DNA from: a bacterium | GTDB taxonomy: Bacteria; UBP6; UBA1177 | Reading direction: 5' to 3' | Assembly (NCBI GenBank): GCA_017645765.1 | Contig: JAGCNV010000077.1 | Span: 1 to 48,555 of the forward strand | Length of the DNA stretch: 48,555 bases | Shown here: in pieces, positions 25,081 to 34,163 of the stretch | How positions within the stretch are numbered: position 1 is the stretch's first letter | Layout: each line of letters starts with the position of its first letter | Notes under the pieces: generated by a model | Told to the model about the DNA's origin: nothing | Seen by the model: the letters and a program-made list of their open reading frames with translations, nothing else | Database searches by the model: none | Position numbers and translations under genes: made by a program

Positions 25081-26502
25081 TTACTCTTTAACAAGTTTTT
25101 CCCAGGCCTCTTCCAGAGTAAGTCCTTTTTTCGACGATTCGATGAGATAGTTTTCAAGCGGAGTCCTCCAGCTGACGTTTGTCGTCACGCCCTGCGAATC
25201 GGTGAATCTGTAGCCGTCGCCGCCCTGATAGATGAAATCTGTCGTAATGATTTTGTATGTTTTCGAGTTGCCGATCTCTTTGCCGCCTATAAACCATTTT
25301 CCGTCTTTTTTTATTGCGCCGCAGTAGGCGTTTCCCGATTTTTCAATGTCGAAGATCAGGTCTTCGCCCTGAACTGTTGTGGCCTTGGCTATGAAGTTGT
25401 CGAACGGAAAGACCGAAAGAATGTCGCTTTTTTTGACATCTCCCGCTTTTATAGTGTCGCGGAATCCTCCAGGGTTGCTTATAGCTATGTCGTATCCCGG
25501 AAAAGCTCTGAGCATCGAGCAGGTGAAAAGTTTCTGCAAAGCCGGTGTCTCAAGCGGTTTTTCTGCTGAAATGAGCTTTTGTCCGGCCTTTTTTTCAAGC
25601 TGAGTCAGATATTTGTCGATAGTTTTCTTAACTTCGAGTGAACCGGTTGATTTTAAAGAAATTTCTCTTTTCAAAGGAACGATCTCGGCATTGACGACTT
25701 TTGAATTTTTCCCTTTTTTTTCGATCAGAACCCTTGCGTAACTCGGAAGATAACCTGCATTCTGGATGAAAAGTACGCCGTCTTCTTCTTCAATAGCTTC
25801 TTTGTGGTCGTGTGCCGTGAAGACGACTAAAGGTTTTTTCGCAAGTGCCGGAACCCATTTTTTCGCCTCGTTGTGCGATTCGTGAGCCACTATGATATTG
25901 AGATCGGCGTTTTCTTTGAAAATAGCGCGCAGAACGGTGTTCCCCGGTTTTGCGATCATCGATTCGACGAAAGGTCTTGACATGCTTATCCGTTTTACAT
26001 CCTCGGTTATTGCCGAAGCAAAAAGGATTTTTTCTTTTCCGGCGTAGATAACTGTGCCCGGATCAAAGAGGTTGTTCATATCTTTTGCGACGAGATTCGA
26101 GCATAGATACTGCATTTTTGCAGTGTTGGCGTTGTTTTTCAGTTCCTTTTCCCCGAAATCGAATTCGTGGTTGCCGAGCGCCGAGACTCTGTAGCCTAAA
26201 AGCCCCATGACTTCAGCCATTGAAGCGCCTTTGAAAAAGGTCGAAACGGCAGTTCCCGTGTAATTGTCGCCGCCCGAAAGTCTTATGACGGTGCAGTTTG
26301 TGCAGTTTTTCTCCTCATCCTCCCACATTTCGTAAAGGGCGACCCCTTTGTACCAGCCGTCGTTTTCGTATATGTGGCCGTGCTCGTCGTTTGTGTAGAG
26401 CAGAAGGATAGTCGAAGTTTCATCTTCCTGAAAAAATCCTCCGATCTGCGAGCATCCTGCAAAAACGACGATCAGAAACAGAACCCAGTATTTCTTAAGC
26501 AT
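25081..26502 (-). CDS. second UshA-like 5'-nucleotidase family lipoprotein
   Basis: The 473-residue lipoprotein (lipobox VFAGC, Cys16) has the metallophosphatase motifs LLYTNDEHGHIY, RLSGGDNYTGT and SALGNHEFDFG. The later metal-binding motifs are altered relative to the usual SHLG and GGHSH: here VAHESHN and FTAHDHKEA, still with the needed histidines. The C-terminal 5'-nucleotidase domain is present (AISNPGGFRDTIKAGDV, DILSVFPFDNF, FIYQGGDGYRF). It has no EF-hand-like insert, unlike the enzyme at 15603-17936, and is close to the normal family length. It stands alone between a 9-bp repeat array and the divergent barrel-gene array. Nucleotide or sugar-nucleotide hydrolysis at the cell surface is likely. 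Confidence 0.88.
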   Translation of the reverse strand: MLKKYWVLFLIVVFAGCSQIGGFFQEDETSTILLLYTNDEHGHIYENDGWYKGVALYEMWEDEEKNCTNCTVIRLSGGDNYTGTAVSTFFKGASMAEVMGLLGYRVSALGNHEFDFGEKELKNNANTAKMQYLCSNLVAKDMNNLFDPGTVIYAGKEKILFASAITEDVKRISMSRPFVESMIAKPGNTVLRAIFKENADLNIIVAHESHNEAKKWVPALAKKPLVVFTAHDHKEAIEEEDGVLFIQNAGYLPSYARVLIEKKGKNSKVVNAEIVPLKREISLKSTGSLEVKKTIDKYLTQLEKKAGQKLISAEKPLETPALQKLFTCSMLRAFPGYDIAISNPGGFRDTIKAGDVKKSDILSVFPFDNFIAKATTVQGEDLIFDIEKSGNAYCGAIKKDGKWFIGGKEIGNSKTYKIITTDFIYQGGDGYRFTDSQGVTTNVSWRTPLENYLIESSKKGLTLEEAWEKLVKE

Positions 26503-26571: not shown

Positions 26572-26600
26572 TTGATTTTTTCATGCGGTTTGTGTATAAA
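26572..26600 (+). promoter_or_regulatory. sigma70-type promoter for the six-gene barrel array
   Basis: TTGATT (26572-26577) and TATAAA (26595-26600) are 17 bp apart, 52 bp upstream of the first gene. No other convincing promoter is seen in the 9-14 bp gaps between the six genes, so one transcript is likely. Confidence 0.5.
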
Positions 26601-26652
26601 AACTGTGCCGTTGAGATTGTTGGATAAGGAAAATAGAATTCCGGAGGTTGTT

Positions 26653-27507
26653 ATGAAAAAAATCTTTTTGTTTTTCGTAATTTTTATGTTTTTCGGTGTT
26701 CTGACGGCGCAGGAAGCGCAGAACGAGCAGGCTGCCGCGCAGACTGAGGAAAAAGCGGCTGCGGAAGAAGTTAAAGAAGTGACCGAAGCAGCTCCAGCAG
26801 AGGCTCCTGCTGCGGAAAATCAGGAAACCGAAGCGCAGAACGCACCTCAGGAAGAAAAAACTGAACCTGAAGCAGCTGAAAAACAGCCGGAACCTGAGCC
26901 GGAAAAGGCAGAACCCGAAACTCCTGTGCAACCGGCCGCACCTGCGGAACCCGCAAAGACAGAACCCGAACAACCTGAAACAGCAGCGGCGCAATCAGTA
27001 TGCGAACCTGTTCAGCAAGAGGAAAAACCTTCGAAAATGTTCTATCAGCCTTCCATTGGTATCGGAGTCGGCGCTTCGATTTTCAGTCTGAGAATCAACA
27101 ACGACATAGATTTTCTCCTGAAACACACGAAAGACGGTACGAATGTCTATATGGGCCTTGAGATCGACTTCAGATACAGCCCTTACCTTGACGACCACGC
27201 GATTTACGAGATTCCGGTTCAGGTGAACCTTGCTGTCGATTTCCCGGTGGTGCACAGAAATATCAGCCGCCTCGCACTGTGGTTCTCGGCCGGGATCGAT
27301 CTCGCGATAGGATACCTTTTCTATTACGACTACGATGACGACGACTGGGATGACAGCAAAGACAGGGACACGATGTTCAGAGTCATGCCGGCATGGGGCA
27401 TGGGGGTTACGATGCTTTTCAGGAACGATGTTACTCTGAAACTCGGTTTTGACAGTTTCTACGGCAAATATCCGGATATCATCTGTGCGGCGGGCTACCG
27501 TTTTTAA
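26653..27507 (+). CDS. array barrel protein 1, with long Pro/Glu/Ala periplasmic spacer
   Basis: The 284-residue product starts at ATG 26653 after GGAGG. Signal peptide (MKKIFLFFVIFMFFGVLTAQ) is followed by about 105 residues of Pro, Glu, Ala and Gln (PEPEPEKAEPETPVQPAAP-like), reminiscent of the rigid spacer of TonB, but there is no TonB domain. The last 150 residues are a beta-barrel with the array signatures: YQPSIGIGVGASIF, NVYMGLEIDFRYSP, IPVQVNLAVDF, MPAWGMGVTMLF, FYGKYPDI and C-terminal AAGYRF. The terminal Phe is the usual signal for outer-membrane assembly by BamA. Only this first copy has the long spacer. Function unknown. Confidence 0.8.
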   Translation: MKKIFLFFVIFMFFGVLTAQEAQNEQAAAQTEEKAAAEEVKEVTEAAPAEAPAAENQETEAQNAPQEEKTEPEAAEKQPEPEPEKAEPETPVQPAAPAEPAKTEPEQPETAAAQSVCEPVQQEEKPSKMFYQPSIGIGVGASIFSLRINNDIDFLLKHTKDGTNVYMGLEIDFRYSPYLDDHAIYEIPVQVNLAVDFPVVHRNISRLALWFSAGIDLAIGYLFYYDYDDDDWDDSKDRDTMFRVMPAWGMGVTMLFRNDVTLKLGFDSFYGKYPDIICAAGYRF

Positions 27508-27516
27508 GTGCTTTTT

Positions 27517-28137
27517 ATGAAGAAGTTATTTTTCTTTTTCACATTTTTTTTCTTTTTCGCTTTTTTAGTTGCCGAAGATGTGAAAACCGGCACATTGGTT
27601 GAAGAGGGGACGGCGGAGTCCGAAAAAGTTCCCGAAGACGAGCGGGAAGCTGAAACCAAAGATGAGCCGGAATGGTTTTATGTCCAGCCAGCTTTGGGAA
27701 TTGAAACTGGCAACGTGTTTTTCGCGACAGTCATAAATCTGGATATAGATTTTCTTGTAGGCCGGACGAAAAGGAAAAACAACATCTATCTCGGTTTTGA
27801 TTTGGGAATGACAACTACTCCGATTGATCATTTCTATGCCGTTCCTGTTCAGGCTAACATCAGTTTTGATTTCAAACAGAAAGATCCGAACCTGAATTTT
27901 GTGAGCCTGTGGATGTCGCTCGGAATCAATTTAAATTTCTGGTCATATCGGGAACATTCAGGCTGGATGGGGGTTTCTGCCGCATGGAGAACCGGTCTCG
28001 ACATTGTTTTTGCGAAGGATGTCGTGATAAAAGTCGGTCTTGACAAATCTCCGTGGGCTTTGCTGAACAAATATAATAGTGGTAACGTCCGCGGATTGTA
28101 TCTGAGTTTTATGATTGCTTTGGGTTACAGGTTTTAG
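27517..28137 (+). CDS. array barrel protein 2
   Basis: The 206-residue product starts at ATG 27517, nine bases after the preceding stop, with no strong ribosome binding site, so translational coupling is likely; a GTG at 27508 would only add residues before a normal signal peptide. The mature N-terminus is short and acidic. The barrel shows VQPALGIETGNVFF, NNIYLGFDLGMT, VPVQANISFDF, AAWRTGLDIVF and the C-terminal ALGYRF. It differs from its neighbours near the end, where a KYNSGNVRGLYLS segment replaces the FYGKYP element. Confidence 0.78.
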   Translation: MKKLFFFFTFFFFFAFLVAEDVKTGTLVEEGTAESEKVPEDEREAETKDEPEWFYVQPALGIETGNVFFATVINLDIDFLVGRTKRKNNIYLGFDLGMTTTPIDHFYAVPVQANISFDFKQKDPNLNFVSLWMSLGINLNFWSYREHSGWMGVSAAWRTGLDIVFAKDVVIKVGLDKSPWALLNKYNSGNVRGLYLSFMIALGYRF

Positions 28138-28146
28138 GGGAGTGTT

Positions 28147-28740
28147 ATGAAAAAAATCGCGATATGTTTGATAATATTCCTCTTTTCATTTGTCGTTACG
28201 GCGCAAACAGCGGAAAATGAGACGAAAACCGGCGTAAACAGCGGACCAGTCGCATCGGAAGGTGATGTCTCCGAAGCTGAAGAGGCTCCTTCAAAGTTTT
28301 ATGTCCAGCCCGCTTTGGGAGTAGGAACAGGGATGTCCATTTTCCGGACCAATGCGGCTCTGGATATAGATTTTCTCCTGAAACAGTCTAAGGGTGCCCG
28401 CGGTTACATGGGTTTTGATATTGATTTGAGATACATGACTATAGTCTGGGACGGCGATGTTGAGCTTGCTTTGCAGCTGAATACCGTCATCGATATTGAC
28501 GTGAACAACGATCCGCGCATGAAATCGGTTAGTTTCTGGGGTTCGGCGGGACTTCTCCTATATTTCGATAAAAATGACGATGATTATAAAAGCTGGGGAG
28601 GTTATTCTTTGGTTCTGCATCCGGCATGGGGAATCGGAACCGATCTTGTCTTCAGAAACGGAATGATACTTAAAATCGGTATAGACGGATTTCAAGGCAA
28701 ATATCCCGATCTGACTCTTGCGGTAGGTTACCGCTTTTAA
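28147..28740 (+). CDS. array barrel protein 3
   Basis: The 197-residue product starts at ATG 28147 behind GGGGAG. After the signal peptide and about 30 acidic residues come the family motifs: VQPALGVGTGMSIF, LDIDFLLKQSKG, GYMGFDIDLRYM, LHPAWGIGTDLVF, FQGKYPDLTLAVGYRF. It is most like copies 1 and 6 in the last motif. The predicted strands are separated by short turns and one longer Asp-rich loop (KNDDDY). Confidence 0.78.
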   Translation: MKKIAICLIIFLFSFVVTAQTAENETKTGVNSGPVASEGDVSEAEEAPSKFYVQPALGVGTGMSIFRTNAALDIDFLLKQSKGARGYMGFDIDLRYMTIVWDGDVELALQLNTVIDIDVNNDPRMKSVSFWGSAGLLLYFDKNDDDYKSWGGYSLVLHPAWGIGTDLVFRNGMILKIGIDGFQGKYPDLTLAVGYRF

Positions 28741-28749
28741 AGTTATTTT

Positions 28750-29307
28750 ATGAAAAAACTGCTTCTCTTTTTCACATTTTTTCTCTTTTTCGGATTTTTA
28801 AGTGCGGAAGATTCACGTGAAACAATCGAAAAACCGAAGAAATTCTTTTTTCAGGCTGCTGCAGGGGTGCTTACCGGCATCAATTTAAATGTGGCCGCCA
28901 ATTTTGATTTCGGTTTCCTGGTTTTCCACTCTCCGGCAGGAAACAATCTCTATCTCGGTTTTGAAACCGATTTCAGATATGCAATGAAAAACTGGATAGT
29001 TGACGATTACGATGACTACAATATTTTCGAAATTCCTGTTCAGGCGCACCTGACGGTCGATTTTAAAAACAAAAATCCGCTTGTTCCCTATCTTTCGATG
29101 TGGTTTTCGATAGGGAGTGAAATTTTGTTGGAAAGTGAAGCCGACAGTCCGTATGACAAAAAGAGATTCAAAGGCGCGAGAGCGGCAGCGGCATGGGGGA
29201 CAGGGCTAAACCTTGTGCTTAAAGACAGCGTTGTTTTCAAAACGGGAATTGAGGGGTATAAAGGAATGTATCCCGTCCTGCTTTTTGCTTTGGGTTACAG
29301 ATTTTAG
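28750..29307 (+). CDS. array barrel protein 4
   Basis: The 185-residue product, the shortest of the six, starts at ATG 28750 nine bases after the previous stop, with a weak ribosome binding site. The signal peptide (MKKLLLFFTFFLFFGFLSAE) is followed almost at once by the barrel: FFQAAAGVLTGINL, NNLYLGFETDFRYA, IPVQAHLTVDF, AAAWGTGLNLVL, YKGMYPVLLFALGYRF. An Asp/Tyr-rich loop (DDYDDYN) precedes the IPVQ strand. Confidence 0.78.
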   Translation: MKKLLLFFTFFLFFGFLSAEDSRETIEKPKKFFFQAAAGVLTGINLNVAANFDFGFLVFHSPAGNNLYLGFETDFRYAMKNWIVDDYDDYNIFEIPVQAHLTVDFKNKNPLVPYLSMWFSIGSEILLESEADSPYDKKRFKGARAAAAWGTGLNLVLKDSVVFKTGIEGYKGMYPVLLFALGYRF

Positions 29308-29321
29308 AGGGTTCGGAGTTT

Positions 29322-29894
29322 ATGAGAAAAGTTCTCGTTTTTTCAGCTATACTTTTTGTTTTCGGCACTTTTTTCGCGAAAACAGAAACAACTGAGAGCG
29401 GTAGTGCTGAAACTGACCGGTTTTATATCCAGCCTGTTCTGGCGGCCGGCATGATTTTCGGCGGAGAGCGTTATGTTTCAGGCTCATTCAATGCTTCGCT
29501 CAAAACGGAATTTCTCGTTTCACGACCGGGCAGAATCACCGATATCTATGTCGGAGCTGATATCGGCTTCAAGTACAACAACTCACTTTATCAGACTTGG
29601 GATGTGCCGCTACTTTTCAATGTTGCTTTTGACTTCATGACCGATTCTAGGGAGGGAATTCCCGAACATATAGGTTTTTGGCTTGCAATCGGGGTCGCGT
29701 GCGGAAAATATGATGAGGACTCAGTTTTTGATTATGATCCCGGCGATCCGGATCATCCTTATGTTCAGTTTGACTTCGCGTGGGCGTTCGGTCTGGAGGC
29801 GAAATTCAGGAACCGTCTCGTCGTTCAGCTTTCAGCGAGGAGTTTTGCCGCTGGCAAAGTGGTCCCGATGGCCGGTATCGGTTACAGATTTTAG
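29322..29894 (+). CDS. array barrel protein 5, the most divergent copy
   Basis: The 190-residue product starts at ATG 29322 behind GGAG. It keeps the general plan (IQPVLAAGMIFGG, DIYVGADIGFKYN, VPLLFNVAFDF, FAWAFGLEAKF and MAGIGYRF) but has lost the DFLL and FYGKYP elements, and its loop is DYDPGDPDHPY. It has drifted further than the other copies, which suggests an older duplication or a different ligand. Confidence 0.76.
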   Translation: MRKVLVFSAILFVFGTFFAKTETTESGSAETDRFYIQPVLAAGMIFGGERYVSGSFNASLKTEFLVSRPGRITDIYVGADIGFKYNNSLYQTWDVPLLFNVAFDFMTDSREGIPEHIGFWLAIGVACGKYDEDSVFDYDPGDPDHPYVQFDFAWAFGLEAKFRNRLVVQLSARSFAAGKVVPMAGIGYRF

Positions 29895-29906
29895 GCGGAG
29901 AGTTTT

Positions 29907-30479
29907 ATGAAGAAGCTGCTACTCTTTTTTGCGATGATATTTTTCACAGCGGCTCTGAGCGCCGCCGACGGCACGCCTGTTCCGGCGGAAAGCGGGGAAA
30001 AACCTGTAAACCCGGTCTATTTTCAGGGAACTCTCGGTTTTGCGACAGGCTCTTCGCTTTTTTCTCTGAGCACCGATTTCAACCTAGGTTTTCTTGTGGC
30101 GCACACAAAGAGAGAAAACAACATCTACCTCGGGATAGACGCCGATTTCAGATATAATCCTTACAAGGAGCACGAACATTCGATAGAAGCGCCGCTCCAG
30201 CTCAATTTCGCTGTCGATTTCAAGATGAAAAATGTCGGACTTCAGTATTCTGGATTCTGGATCTCAGGCGGAGTCGATCTCACTTACGGAGTCGATTGCG
30301 CGACAGACAGCCACTATCGTACGGTTTCGCCTTCGTGGCAGAAAAAATTCAGACTGAAACCTGCATGGGCTGCCGGCGGCAACTTTGTTTTCAAGTACAA
30401 TATAGTTTTGAGAACAGCGCTTTACGGGTTCTACGGAAAATATCCGAATGTTCTTATTGCCGTCGGTTACCGTTTTTAA
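29907..30479 (+). CDS. array barrel protein 6
   Basis: The 190-residue product starts at ATG 29907 behind GGAGAG. The barrel motifs are FQGTLGFATGSSLF, FNLGFLVAHTKRENNIYLG, ADFRYNPY, APLQLNFAVDF, KPAWAAGGNFVF and FYGKYPNVLIAVGYRF. The HTKR.NNIYLG segment is shared closely with copies 1 and 2. The stop lies one base from the end of the convergent mpg gene, closing the array. Confidence 0.78.
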   Translation: MKKLLLFFAMIFFTAALSAADGTPVPAESGEKPVNPVYFQGTLGFATGSSLFSLSTDFNLGFLVAHTKRENNIYLGIDADFRYNPYKEHEHSIEAPLQLNFAVDFKMKNVGLQYSGFWISGGVDLTYGVDCATDSHYRTVSPSWQKKFRLKPAWAAGGNFVFKYNIVLRTALYGFYGKYPNVLIAVGYRF

Positions 30480-30480
30480 T

Positions 30481-31074
30481 CTAAAATTTGGAGACGAATC
30501 TGTTTCCTTCGATGTATTTGCGCCATGGTTTGTCCTTAAATTCACCGGCGTAGTCGATGTTTATCCGCGGCGCGGAAACTATGTTGAAATCGGGGAGAGC
30601 GGGATTTTTTTCGAGAAAGAGTTCTTTTCCGCTCACGAGGTCGCATCCGTTGAGGCTTTTGTCAAGAAGGAGCGCTTTCGCAAGTTTGCCGGGGCCGTTC
30701 GTGAGATCGGTTTCCTTGACGATCCCTTTGCGGTTCGACCTGATCAGATCGAGTCCTTTGACCGGCTCGACTGCGCGGATAAGGACAGCCTGCGGATCGT
30801 CTTTCGGCGCGGAAACGACATTGAGGCAGAAGTTCATCCCGTAAATCATGTAGATGTAGGCGTGTCCGCCCGGCAGAAACATCGCCTCGGTCCTTTCGGT
30901 GCGCCGTCCTCCGAAAGTGTGACAGCCTTTGTCAAGAACGCCGCAGTAAGCCTCGGTTTCGACGATTTTTGTGACGATTCTGCCGGCAGCGGTCTCTCTC
31001 ACAAGAAAGTGGCCGAGCAGATCTTCCGCGACGCTGAGAGCGCCTCTCATGAAAAAAGAGCGTGGAAAACGCAT
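30481..31074 (-). CDS. mpg: DNA-3-methyladenine glycosylase (AAG/MPG family)
   Basis: The enzyme removes alkylated bases such as 3-methyladenine to start base-excision repair. The 197-residue product has the family order: ARxLLG-like AEDLLGHFLVR, IVETEAYCG with the catalytic glutamate, KGCHTFGGRRTERTEAMF, the YIYMIYGMNFCLNVVS block, VLIRAVEPV, TNGPGKLAKAL and a closing PRINIDYAGEFKDKPWRKYI. Length and domain are complete. It is the only DNA-repair gene in the window, is convergent with the last array barrel gene, and is divergent from adk. Confidence 0.93.
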   Translation of the reverse strand: MRFPRSFFMRGALSVAEDLLGHFLVRETAAGRIVTKIVETEAYCGVLDKGCHTFGGRRTERTEAMFLPGGHAYIYMIYGMNFCLNVVSAPKDDPQAVLIRAVEPVKGLDLIRSNRKGIVKETDLTNGPGKLAKALLLDKSLNGCDLVSGKELFLEKNPALPDFNIVSAPRINIDYAGEFKDKPWRKYIEGNRFVSKF

Positions 31075-32035: not shown

Positions 32036-34060
32036 TTATTTTTTGAAAACGCAGTTGGAAAATTCCTGAGGCATTTTGTTTTTGTACGGCGAAGGATTCG
32101 TGCCGAGCGGATGGTCGTAGAAAAATTTTACAAGAGCGTCGATGTCGCTCTGGGATGTATGAGGATCGTGACCGCCGCCGTGGTTGCAGAGAATCGCGCT
32201 GTGACCGTTTGCAAGGAGATAATCTCCGTCGTTTTCCCCTGTTTCGTTGAAATCGATCGTGAAATTGATCAGTCCGTCTTCAACGCTCCAAGTGTCGCTT
32301 CCGGCATCGCCGAACATAAACATCTGGGTATATTTGTTGTGGTTTTCTTCAAAATCAGGCCAGGTGAAGAAAGAGCCTATCGAGATCGGGGTTCCTTCGC
32401 TGATTTCTACTGTGCCGAGTGCTTCACGGTTTGCCGGATTCGAGAAGTATGCACCTGAGTAAGTGAGAACGCTCGCAACTTTATCTGATCTCATCAGGGC
32501 GATGCTGTCGGCAGCTATTGCACCGGCTGAAAATCCAGAAATGTGGATGCGCTCTTCGTCAACCATATTTCTTGTCTTGAGGCATTCTAAAATTGCGTCA
32601 AACATATCTGCTTCAGCGTTTCCGTCCGACAGTGTTACGATATCCCAGTCAAGACCTGTCGGCGGTATGCTGAGCTGGAATTTGTCGCCTCTTGCTTCAG
32701 GGATGACAAGGATAAACGGCATTGTTTCATTGTTTACATTTCCTGCAAGAACTGTGTCGATATCGGCTGCTTTAACATTGTATGGATGGTAAAAGAAAAC
32801 AACCGGAAGTTTTTCTTCGGTGTTTGAAGGCATACGAAGATAAAAATTCCTTGCAAGCGTATCGGAGCCTTCGCCGACCATCAGGTTTTTGTTATAACCT
32901 TCCTTGAAATTTTCGCATGTAAGCGGTTCGCCGTCAGGAGTTTCCGGTTCTTCGGGATCTTCTTCTTCAACAATGTCATCTTCCGTGAAGAAATGGCAGA
33001 TTTTTGAGAATTCTTCCGGAAGAGCCTCTTTATAAGGTGACTTGACGGTTCCGAAAGGATGATCTGCAAAAAATTTGATTGCAGCGTTAGCCGATATTCC
33101 TGCAACAGTATGATCCTGACCATGGTTGCAGAGGATCGCGTCGTGACCAAGTTTCGTAAGATAGTTCGCGCCGAGACGTGCCATCTGGTTAAAGTATATA
33201 GTAAACATTCCCGCTTGACCCCAGGAATCATCTTCTTTATCGCCGAAAACAAAAACCTGCGGATATTTCGTGTGTTCTTCCTCAAAATCGGGCCAGCTGA
33301 AGAAGTCGCTGATTTTCATTCCCATAATTGAGCCGAGAGCATCGCGGCTTGCTGCATCCGAGAAGTAAGCACCTGAATATGAGAGGATGCTTGCGATTTT
33401 CTCAGGTTTCTGCACGCCCATGCTGTTCGCAGTGATCGCACCTGCCGAGAAACCGGAAACATGGATGTGTTTCTCGTCGATTTTCCATCTTTTTTCAAGG
33501 CAAGAAAGAATTGCGTCGAACATGTCGCCTTCCGCGCTTCCGTCTGTAAGATTCATCATATCCCACTCGATTCCTGCCGGCGGAATGTTGTTGAAGCCGT
33601 AAACATCGCTTCTTGATTCGGGAGTGACGAGTATGAACGGCATCGTTTCGTTGTCGACATAGCTTGAGAAGAAACTTTCAAAGCTCTTTGCTTTGTCGCC
33701 GTAGCCGTGATAAAGGAAAATTACGGGAACTTTTTCCAATGAATCGACATTTTCAGGCAGTCTAAGGTAGAAACTTCTCGCAAGCTCGTTTTTGCCTTCT
33801 CCTACAATCAGATTTTCATTGAGTCCTTCCGCGAAGTCCTCGCATTTGAGCGGGTCTTTTTCCGGCTCGGCCTCAGTCGGTTCATTGTCGGAATCGTCTG
33901 CTGTCGGTTCTTCGACATCGCCGTCGGTTTCAGCCGGTTCGCTTTCACCGTCGGAAATCTCCTCGGGTTCTTTTTCTTTGTCGCCCTTCTTTGAGTCTCC
34001 GCATGAAACCGCGAAAACAAGCACCAAAGCAAGTGTTAAAAACCACAAAAATTTTTTCAT
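32036..34060 (-). CDS. lipoprotein with two tandem PHB-depolymerase/feruloyl-esterase-like domains
   Basis: The 674-residue product starts at ATG 34060 behind AGGAGAG; the open frame reaches 66 bases further but lacks a signal peptide there. Lipobox FAVSC (Cys20) and an acidic tether lead to two homologous alpha/beta-hydrolase domains. Domain 1 has PVIFLYHGYGD, IHVSGFSAGAITANSM (nucleophile about Ser205) and HGQDHTVAGI; domain 2 has PVVFFYHPYN, IHISGFSAGAIAADS (about Ser511) and HGGGHDPHTS. Both are followed by SP.KE or SPYKN and a short tail. This is the esterase family of LpqC, PHB depolymerases and feruloyl esterases (CE1-like), so hydrolysis of plant-wall or polymer esters at the cell surface is likely. 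The duplication is internal and old. Confidence 0.83.
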   Translation of the reverse strand: MKKFLWFLTLALVLVFAVSCGDSKKGDKEKEPEEISDGESEPAETDGDVEEPTADDSDNEPTEAEPEKDPLKCEDFAEGLNENLIVGEGKNELARSFYLRLPENVDSLEKVPVIFLYHGYGDKAKSFESFFSSYVDNETMPFILVTPESRSDVYGFNNIPPAGIEWDMMNLTDGSAEGDMFDAILSCLEKRWKIDEKHIHVSGFSAGAITANSMGVQKPEKIASILSYSGAYFSDAASRDALGSIMGMKISDFFSWPDFEEEHTKYPQVFVFGDKEDDSWGQAGMFTIYFNQMARLGANYLTKLGHDAILCNHGQDHTVAGISANAAIKFFADHPFGTVKSPYKEALPEEFSKICHFFTEDDIVEEEDPEEPETPDGEPLTCENFKEGYNKNLMVGEGSDTLARNFYLRMPSNTEEKLPVVFFYHPYNVKAADIDTVLAGNVNNETMPFILVIPEARGDKFQLSIPPTGLDWDIVTLSDGNAEADMFDAILECLKTRNMVDEERIHISGFSAGAIAADSIALMRSDKVASVLTYSGAYFSNPANREALGTVEISEGTPISIGSFFTWPDFEENHNKYTQMFMFGDAGSDTWSVEDGLINFTIDFNETGENDGDYLLANGHSAILCNHGGGHDPHTSQSDIDALVKFFYDHPLGTNPSPYKNKMPQEFSNCVFKK

Positions 34061-34163
34061 AATTACTCTCCTTAGTAAATACACTAAAACACGCAAAAAC
34101 TTTAGATTTTCAGTTTGTTTTGTCAAATTTGTGTGGAAAGTGCCGTTTCAGGGCAAAAAAAAA

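Follow-up and report, generated by a model that had tools for sequence, protein, structure and literature searches.

Tandem families of surface-protein genes have been studied best in pathogens, where their variation is read as immune escape. The closest in layout to the locus described here is Ehrlichia p28-omp (OMP-1), in which 22 tandem paralogous genes for outer-membrane β-barrels occupy a single locus (PMC7971322). Host-dependent differential expression is known for p28-omp, and no sequence relation to our array, whose proteins match no Pfam family, was seen. P28 itself has been reported as a diffusion channel, whereas small eight-stranded barrels seldom form wide pores, and we know of no multi-gene modules with a homogenized leader in p28-omp. 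The vpma/vsp genes of Mycoplasma encode lipoproteins that are expressed one at a time via promoter switching. For Vpma, variation relies on site-specific recombination by Xer1 (PMC5634654). Clustering of surface-protein genes and recombination among them are common to vpma/vsp and the array, but the latter encodes barrels, in a single orientation and apparently co-expressed to judge from their layout, is subject to interspecies exchange and has no nearby recombinase that could be recognized. The Opa proteins of Neisseria are eight-stranded surface barrels diversified by recombination, with scattered loci, phase-variable repeats and hypervariable loops, whereas the array is one tandem locus in which no phase-variable repeats were seen and loops are conserved within orthogroups. 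Finally, OmpX, Ail, NspA and OmpA resemble the array proteins in fold, size and C-terminal aromatic signal, but are only 9-15% identical to these proteins, which lie outside their sequence families and add a periplasmic leader, a Pro/Glu spacer and a tandem modular layout.

While its layout is nearest to p28-omp, the array follows the logic of surface-gene families diversified by recombination, such as Vpma. It differs from these two in fold family, in its intact and probably co-expressed copies, in its modules and in interspecies exchange. It comes from a ruminant-gut bacterium of candidate phylum UBP6, an uncultured phylum of gut commensals, and encodes an unnamed barrel family whose variety would arise from the trade between species of intact multi-gene modules at one chromosomal site.

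A tandem array of six barrel genes

The window (the whole stretch of DNA analysed, 48,555 nucleotides) carries at 26653-30479 six plus-strand ORFs separated by 9, 9, 9, 14 and 12 bp (Table 1). Each begins with a Lys and hydrophobic signal peptide and ends in GYRF (6/6 copies), a terminus near-invariant in an alignment of 55 copies. The preliminary description of six tandem barrel paralogues ending in GYRF, with 9-14 bp gaps, is therefore borne out by the ORFs and by full-length alignment. Pairwise identity ranges from 20 to 44% across the array, copy 1 being 27-44% identical to other copies over its full length and copy 5 being the outlier (20-26% to the remaining copies). A six-copy profile finds its own members with E-values of 3e-65 to 3e-81 and the sole full-length paralogue elsewhere in the genome with 5e-14. 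The Pro/Glu/Ala spacer, described from the start as long only in the first gene, does measure 108 residues in copy 1 vs 11-33 in the others. Less accurate was the view that the copies differ mainly in Asp-rich loops because, although loops are 7-31% identical between the six paralogues, strands too are only 23-52% identical. Variation in length is mostly confined to extracellular loops L1-L3, to which copy 2 adds one 13-residue insertion. The ribosome site is strongest at copy 1 (GGAGG). The spacing of 9-14 bp between genes that all have a start and a signal peptide of their own makes it probable that the array is transcribed as one unit and that every copy is produced at the same time.

Table 1. 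Features of the barrel array and its borders in the window (OG, orthogroup).
Feature	Position	Strand	Description
5'-nucleotidase-like lipoprotein gene	25081..26502	-	conserved left border; hisS beyond
Region 5' of copy 1	26572..26652	+	one sigma-70-like match, 26611-26639; frequency of such matches in this region not above chance
Copy 1, OG1	26653..27507	+	module 1 (single gene); signal peptide, 108-residue periplasmic spacer (predicted), 8-stranded barrel
Copy 2, OG2	27517..28137	+	module 2, first gene; leader shortened to 'EDVKTGTLVEEG'
Copy 3, OG3	28147..28740	+	module 2, second gene
Copy 4, OG9	28750..29307	+	module 3, first gene; without leader
Copy 5, OG10	29322..29894	+	module 3, second gene; most divergent; modelled 8-stranded barrel, pLDDT 83.8
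Copy 6, OG11	29907..30479	+	module 3, third gene; modelled 8-stranded barrel, pLDDT 84.5
Methylpurine-DNA glycosylase gene	30481..31074	-	conserved right border; adk beyond, 31201-31773

Fold, family membership and distribution

AlphaFold2 models of copies 5 and 6, for which the input alignment consisted of 55 array proteins, show a closed barrel of eight antiparallel transmembrane strands behind the signal peptide, and the best Foldseek matches in the PDB are OmpA, Ail, NspA, OprF and OmpX (E 3e-5 to 5e-4). Two confident models thus agree on one common fold, not unrelated folds, which strengthens the earlier assignment of the genes to paralogous outer-membrane barrels. As the termini of an eight-stranded barrel face the periplasm, the spacer would be periplasmic, while the C-terminal GYRF fits the BAM recognition signal; the array proteins are predicted to be located in the outer membrane.

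That no family could be named for these proteins still stands, no Pfam or NCBIfam profile reaching its cut-off for any of them. Similarity to the TP0733 family (NF047328) is weak and sub-threshold (best array score 15.5 bits, cut-off 130 bits). The same is true of OMP_b-brl (PF13505), which matches none of the array genes and reaches 24 bits, for a cut-off of 28.7 bits, with a stand-alone paralogue on contig C92. Copy 5 matches the YadA anchor (PF03895) across its final 38 residues at 16.8 bits, for a cut-off of 22.7 bits, and is modelled as a complete barrel within a single chain. There is no TonB-dependent receptor plug match in the array, and the single plug protein of the genome is encoded elsewhere. 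A reading of the leader DVTITLFEE as a TonB box was rejected since the N-terminal region of that plug protein (..NKIVVKGT..) differs.

Profile searches of 290 genomes, 28 of them from the phylum, detected the family in just one family of UBP6. Tandem arrays were seen only in the window's genus, and genomes of two other genera each gave one or two remote matches. The relatives that share the neighbourhood, named from a scan with the flanking 5'-nucleotidase gene, derive mostly from ruminant-gut metagenomes, and one of them is labelled UBP6 (L081). Phage and plasmid records and viral contigs contained no match to the array, and a phage or plasmid origin was rejected on these grounds. Where papers mention UBP6 together with the rumen, which each does once or twice, no such locus was seen described. 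Elsewhere in the window's genome, the same barrel forms the C-terminal part of proteins of ~450-490 residues whose N-terminal part is a distinct periplasmic domain, and the C92 paralogue is its one stand-alone copy. The fused barrels in G000 (C35:1121, C65:77669, C73:3315 and C3:35487; L009, L010, L011 and L013) have a conserved periplasmic N-terminal domain, 'IKLAVMEFEDLSG...ATEYIRVVFASTNRYIIISKDRQ', and the one tested matched no Pfam family above cut-off.

Copy number at the orthologous locus

In relatives, the array is found at the same site, between hisS and the 5'-nucleotidase gene on one side and the DNA glycosylase and adenylate kinase genes on the other. The flank proteins are mostly 85-99% identical (5'-nucleotidase as low as 69%), and the number of barrel genes between them ranges from 1 to 22. 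The set and number of copies vary strongly between related genomes. Arrays closed by the nucleotidase and the glycosylase on one contig hold 3 (G006), 3 (G009), 4 (G011), 6 (window), 18 (G012) and 22 (G014) copies at this site. Arrays split between contigs have at least 20 (G005) and at least 12 (G001) copies, G003 and G007 have a single copy adjoining adk, and OG1 is the sole array copy in L059, L060 and L061. All these genomes are metagenome assemblies; G012, with an estimated contamination of 6%, has its array and flanks on one contig.

Modules of one to three genes

When orthogroups are defined at 60% barrel identity, a threshold on which group boundaries depend, the ~100 copies sort into groups that move as fixed modules of one to three genes: OG1 alone, OG2-OG3, OG9-OG10-OG11, OG14-OG15, OG16-OG17, OG7-OG8, OG6-OG12-OG13, OG20-OG21, and OG5 with OG19 or OG22. 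The window's array is composed of the first three of these, in that order (copies 1, 2-3 and 4-5-6). There are 30 conserved adjacencies, vs a mean of 5.1 and a maximum of 12 in 2000 shuffles. Within modules the follower is constant (9/9 for OG2-OG3, 4/4 for OG7-OG8 and 3/3 each for OG9-OG10-OG11, OG14-15, OG16-17 and OG12-13), OG5 being the only case with two partners. Followers across module ends vary, and genomes differ in how many modules they have and in how these are ordered. What changes place, number and genome is thus the module as a unit.

A possible, though tentative, explanation is that a module's two or three barrels form a joint assembly and that selection for matched partners preserves their linkage. 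Module membership is fixed although module order varies, the first genes of one set of modules fall into one clade and their partners into a second (OG5-OG19/22, OG14-OG15, OG23-G006_3/G004_2 and the broken G014_15-16/17), and both partners in several of these parallel-clade modules have a Cys-x-Cys before the barrel, all of which is consistent with hetero-oligomers. However, recombination restricted to seams would by itself give fixed modules, OG5 has two different partners, and a general co-divergence of partners was rejected because it fails to reach significance when near-orthologous modules are excluded (r 0.20, p 0.10). Of the hetero-oligomer idea in the preliminary description, the part that survives is that neighbours stay together as fixed pairs or triplets, a pattern that requires no contact between their products.

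Some modules are separated by an AT-rich element of 244 bp that contains ~32-bp repeats (CTCGCTCATTTTTTTGTGAATTTT) and is promoter-like at one end (L054:9393-9636, L052:8990-9232 and L056:5739-5982), which is found mainly in relatives' arrays. In the 22-copy array (L051:15254-16777), a gene that by eye resembles a DUF4143-like AAA ATPase lies behind these same repeats, between modules.

Exchange between species and probable recombination seams

Module DNA is 87-100% identical between species and, in the clearest pairs, exceeds the flanking genes in identity. G012 and G014 have modules in common at 93-100% DNA identity (OG16 100%, OG17 99%, OG8 98%), for flanks at 82.5% (nuc5), 84.4% (mpg) and 92.8% (adk), while G012 and G013 have OG5-OG19 in common at 95-96%, with adk at 82%. 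Sliding identity along 11 module pairs is mostly 85-100% inside and drops outside to ~25-70%, the level of paralogues. The drops lie at the first gene's leader and immediately beyond the last gene, the exceptions being edges that adjoin a further orthologous gene. Most module-first genes carry a leader, GEY..D[IV]T[IV]TLFEE, and have near-identical start DNA comprising the end of the preceding stop codon, the ribosome site, the signal peptide and the leader, with exact matches of up to 111 bp between leader pairs; some modules (OG7-8, OG4) begin without the motif. Leaders of different orthogroups in the same genome are 84.7% identical in DNA, those of the same orthogroup in different genomes only 78.4%, whereas barrels follow the reverse trend (58.2 and 80.9%, respectively). 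Leader DNA is thus homogenized inside each genome and would form a recombination seam.

In the window, copy 6 is 94% and 92% identical, as aligned, to its orthologues in two other species, and OG2-OG3 is 93-94% identical to G014, for 78% in the adjoining OG1 and 82% in mpg. Its modules are only 87-95% identical to those of relatives, not always above its flanks. Because its leaders are shortened (copy 2) or lost (copy 4, whose orthologues G014_10 and G005_4 retain it), the window's seams would be fossil and have to be read from relatives.

The exchange pattern is plain, and the explanation that we consider likely is a modular repertoire of small surface barrels that owes its diversity to the swapping of ready-made modules at repeated seams and not to mutation in loops. 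Each gene product would consist of a signal peptide, a Pro/Glu-rich periplasmic tail of variable length and an eight-stranded OmpX/OmpA-like barrel, the evolutionary unit being a module of one to three consecutive genes. Homologous recombination at the repeats of first genes, within the genome and with DNA of related species, may add, remove or replace modules, leading to a species-specific mosaic of surface barrels. A mobile element or recombinase as driver was rejected, since none was recognized among the scanned genes nearest the array and the 244-bp element is absent from the window's genome. The likely benefit would be changed recognition by phages, protozoa, other bacteria or the host, or changed cell binding. 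The locus records which surface combinations persist in nature and could help to establish whether rumen phages or protozoa drive the variation; it also provides a new family of small barrels that come in natural sets of partners.

A more ambitious proposal, which we regard as rather improbable, is that of an interspecies cassette system in which each module is a cognate hetero-oligomeric surface device and the homogenized leader serves as both recombination seam and common docking tail. If true, the cell surface could be rebuilt in one crossover with partner matches unbroken.

Selection on strands and loops

Within orthogroups, dN/dS is 0.19 for strands, 0.29 for extracellular loops and 0.30 for turns. 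Selection is purifying, on loops as well, so that orthologues are retained and diversifying selection is not a general feature of loops. Given this low loop dN/dS, variety would come from whole modules being gained, lost and exchanged. These values also weigh on neutral turnover, by which unequal crossing-over between repeats would generate variety without benefit. Repeated seams would by themselves drive changes in copy number, and some genomes keep a single copy; however, a dN/dS of 0.19-0.30 indicates that most copies are maintained, and copies that were recently transferred between species and then kept reflect more than duplication, which makes this explanation unlikely.

Expression-site antigenic variation, in which most copies would be silent donors recombined into one expressed locus, is very unlikely. 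Tandem copies with common 5' sequence, frequent recombination and the promoter-like 244-bp element between some modules are what it would predict, but nearly every copy has a start, a signal peptide, a stop and a short gap, few of the ~100 are disrupted, neither a single expression locus nor a partial cassette came to light, and the flanking genes that were scanned included no recognizable recombinase. Equally hard to sustain is classical loop diversification, as initially proposed for this array, because although loops are the most length-variable parts between paralogues and positive selection on exposed loops is suggested by a dN/dS > 1 in three small orthogroups (OG16, OG21 and OG22), the overall loop value is 0.29 and loops of OG10, OG11 and OG13, whose barrels share at least 86% identity between species, are at 0.07-0.12.

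A Cys-x-Cys lies just before the barrel in both partners in L051 (G014_8/G014_9), L056 (G001_4/G001_5), L064 (G006_2/G006_3) and L065 (G004_1/G004_2), and these motifs are possible disulfide or metal sites. To the right of adk, at 32036-34126 of the window and conserved in relatives, there is a lipoprotein gene encoding two similar esterase/polyhydroxyalkanoate-depolymerase-like domains and an Asp/Glu/Pro linker.
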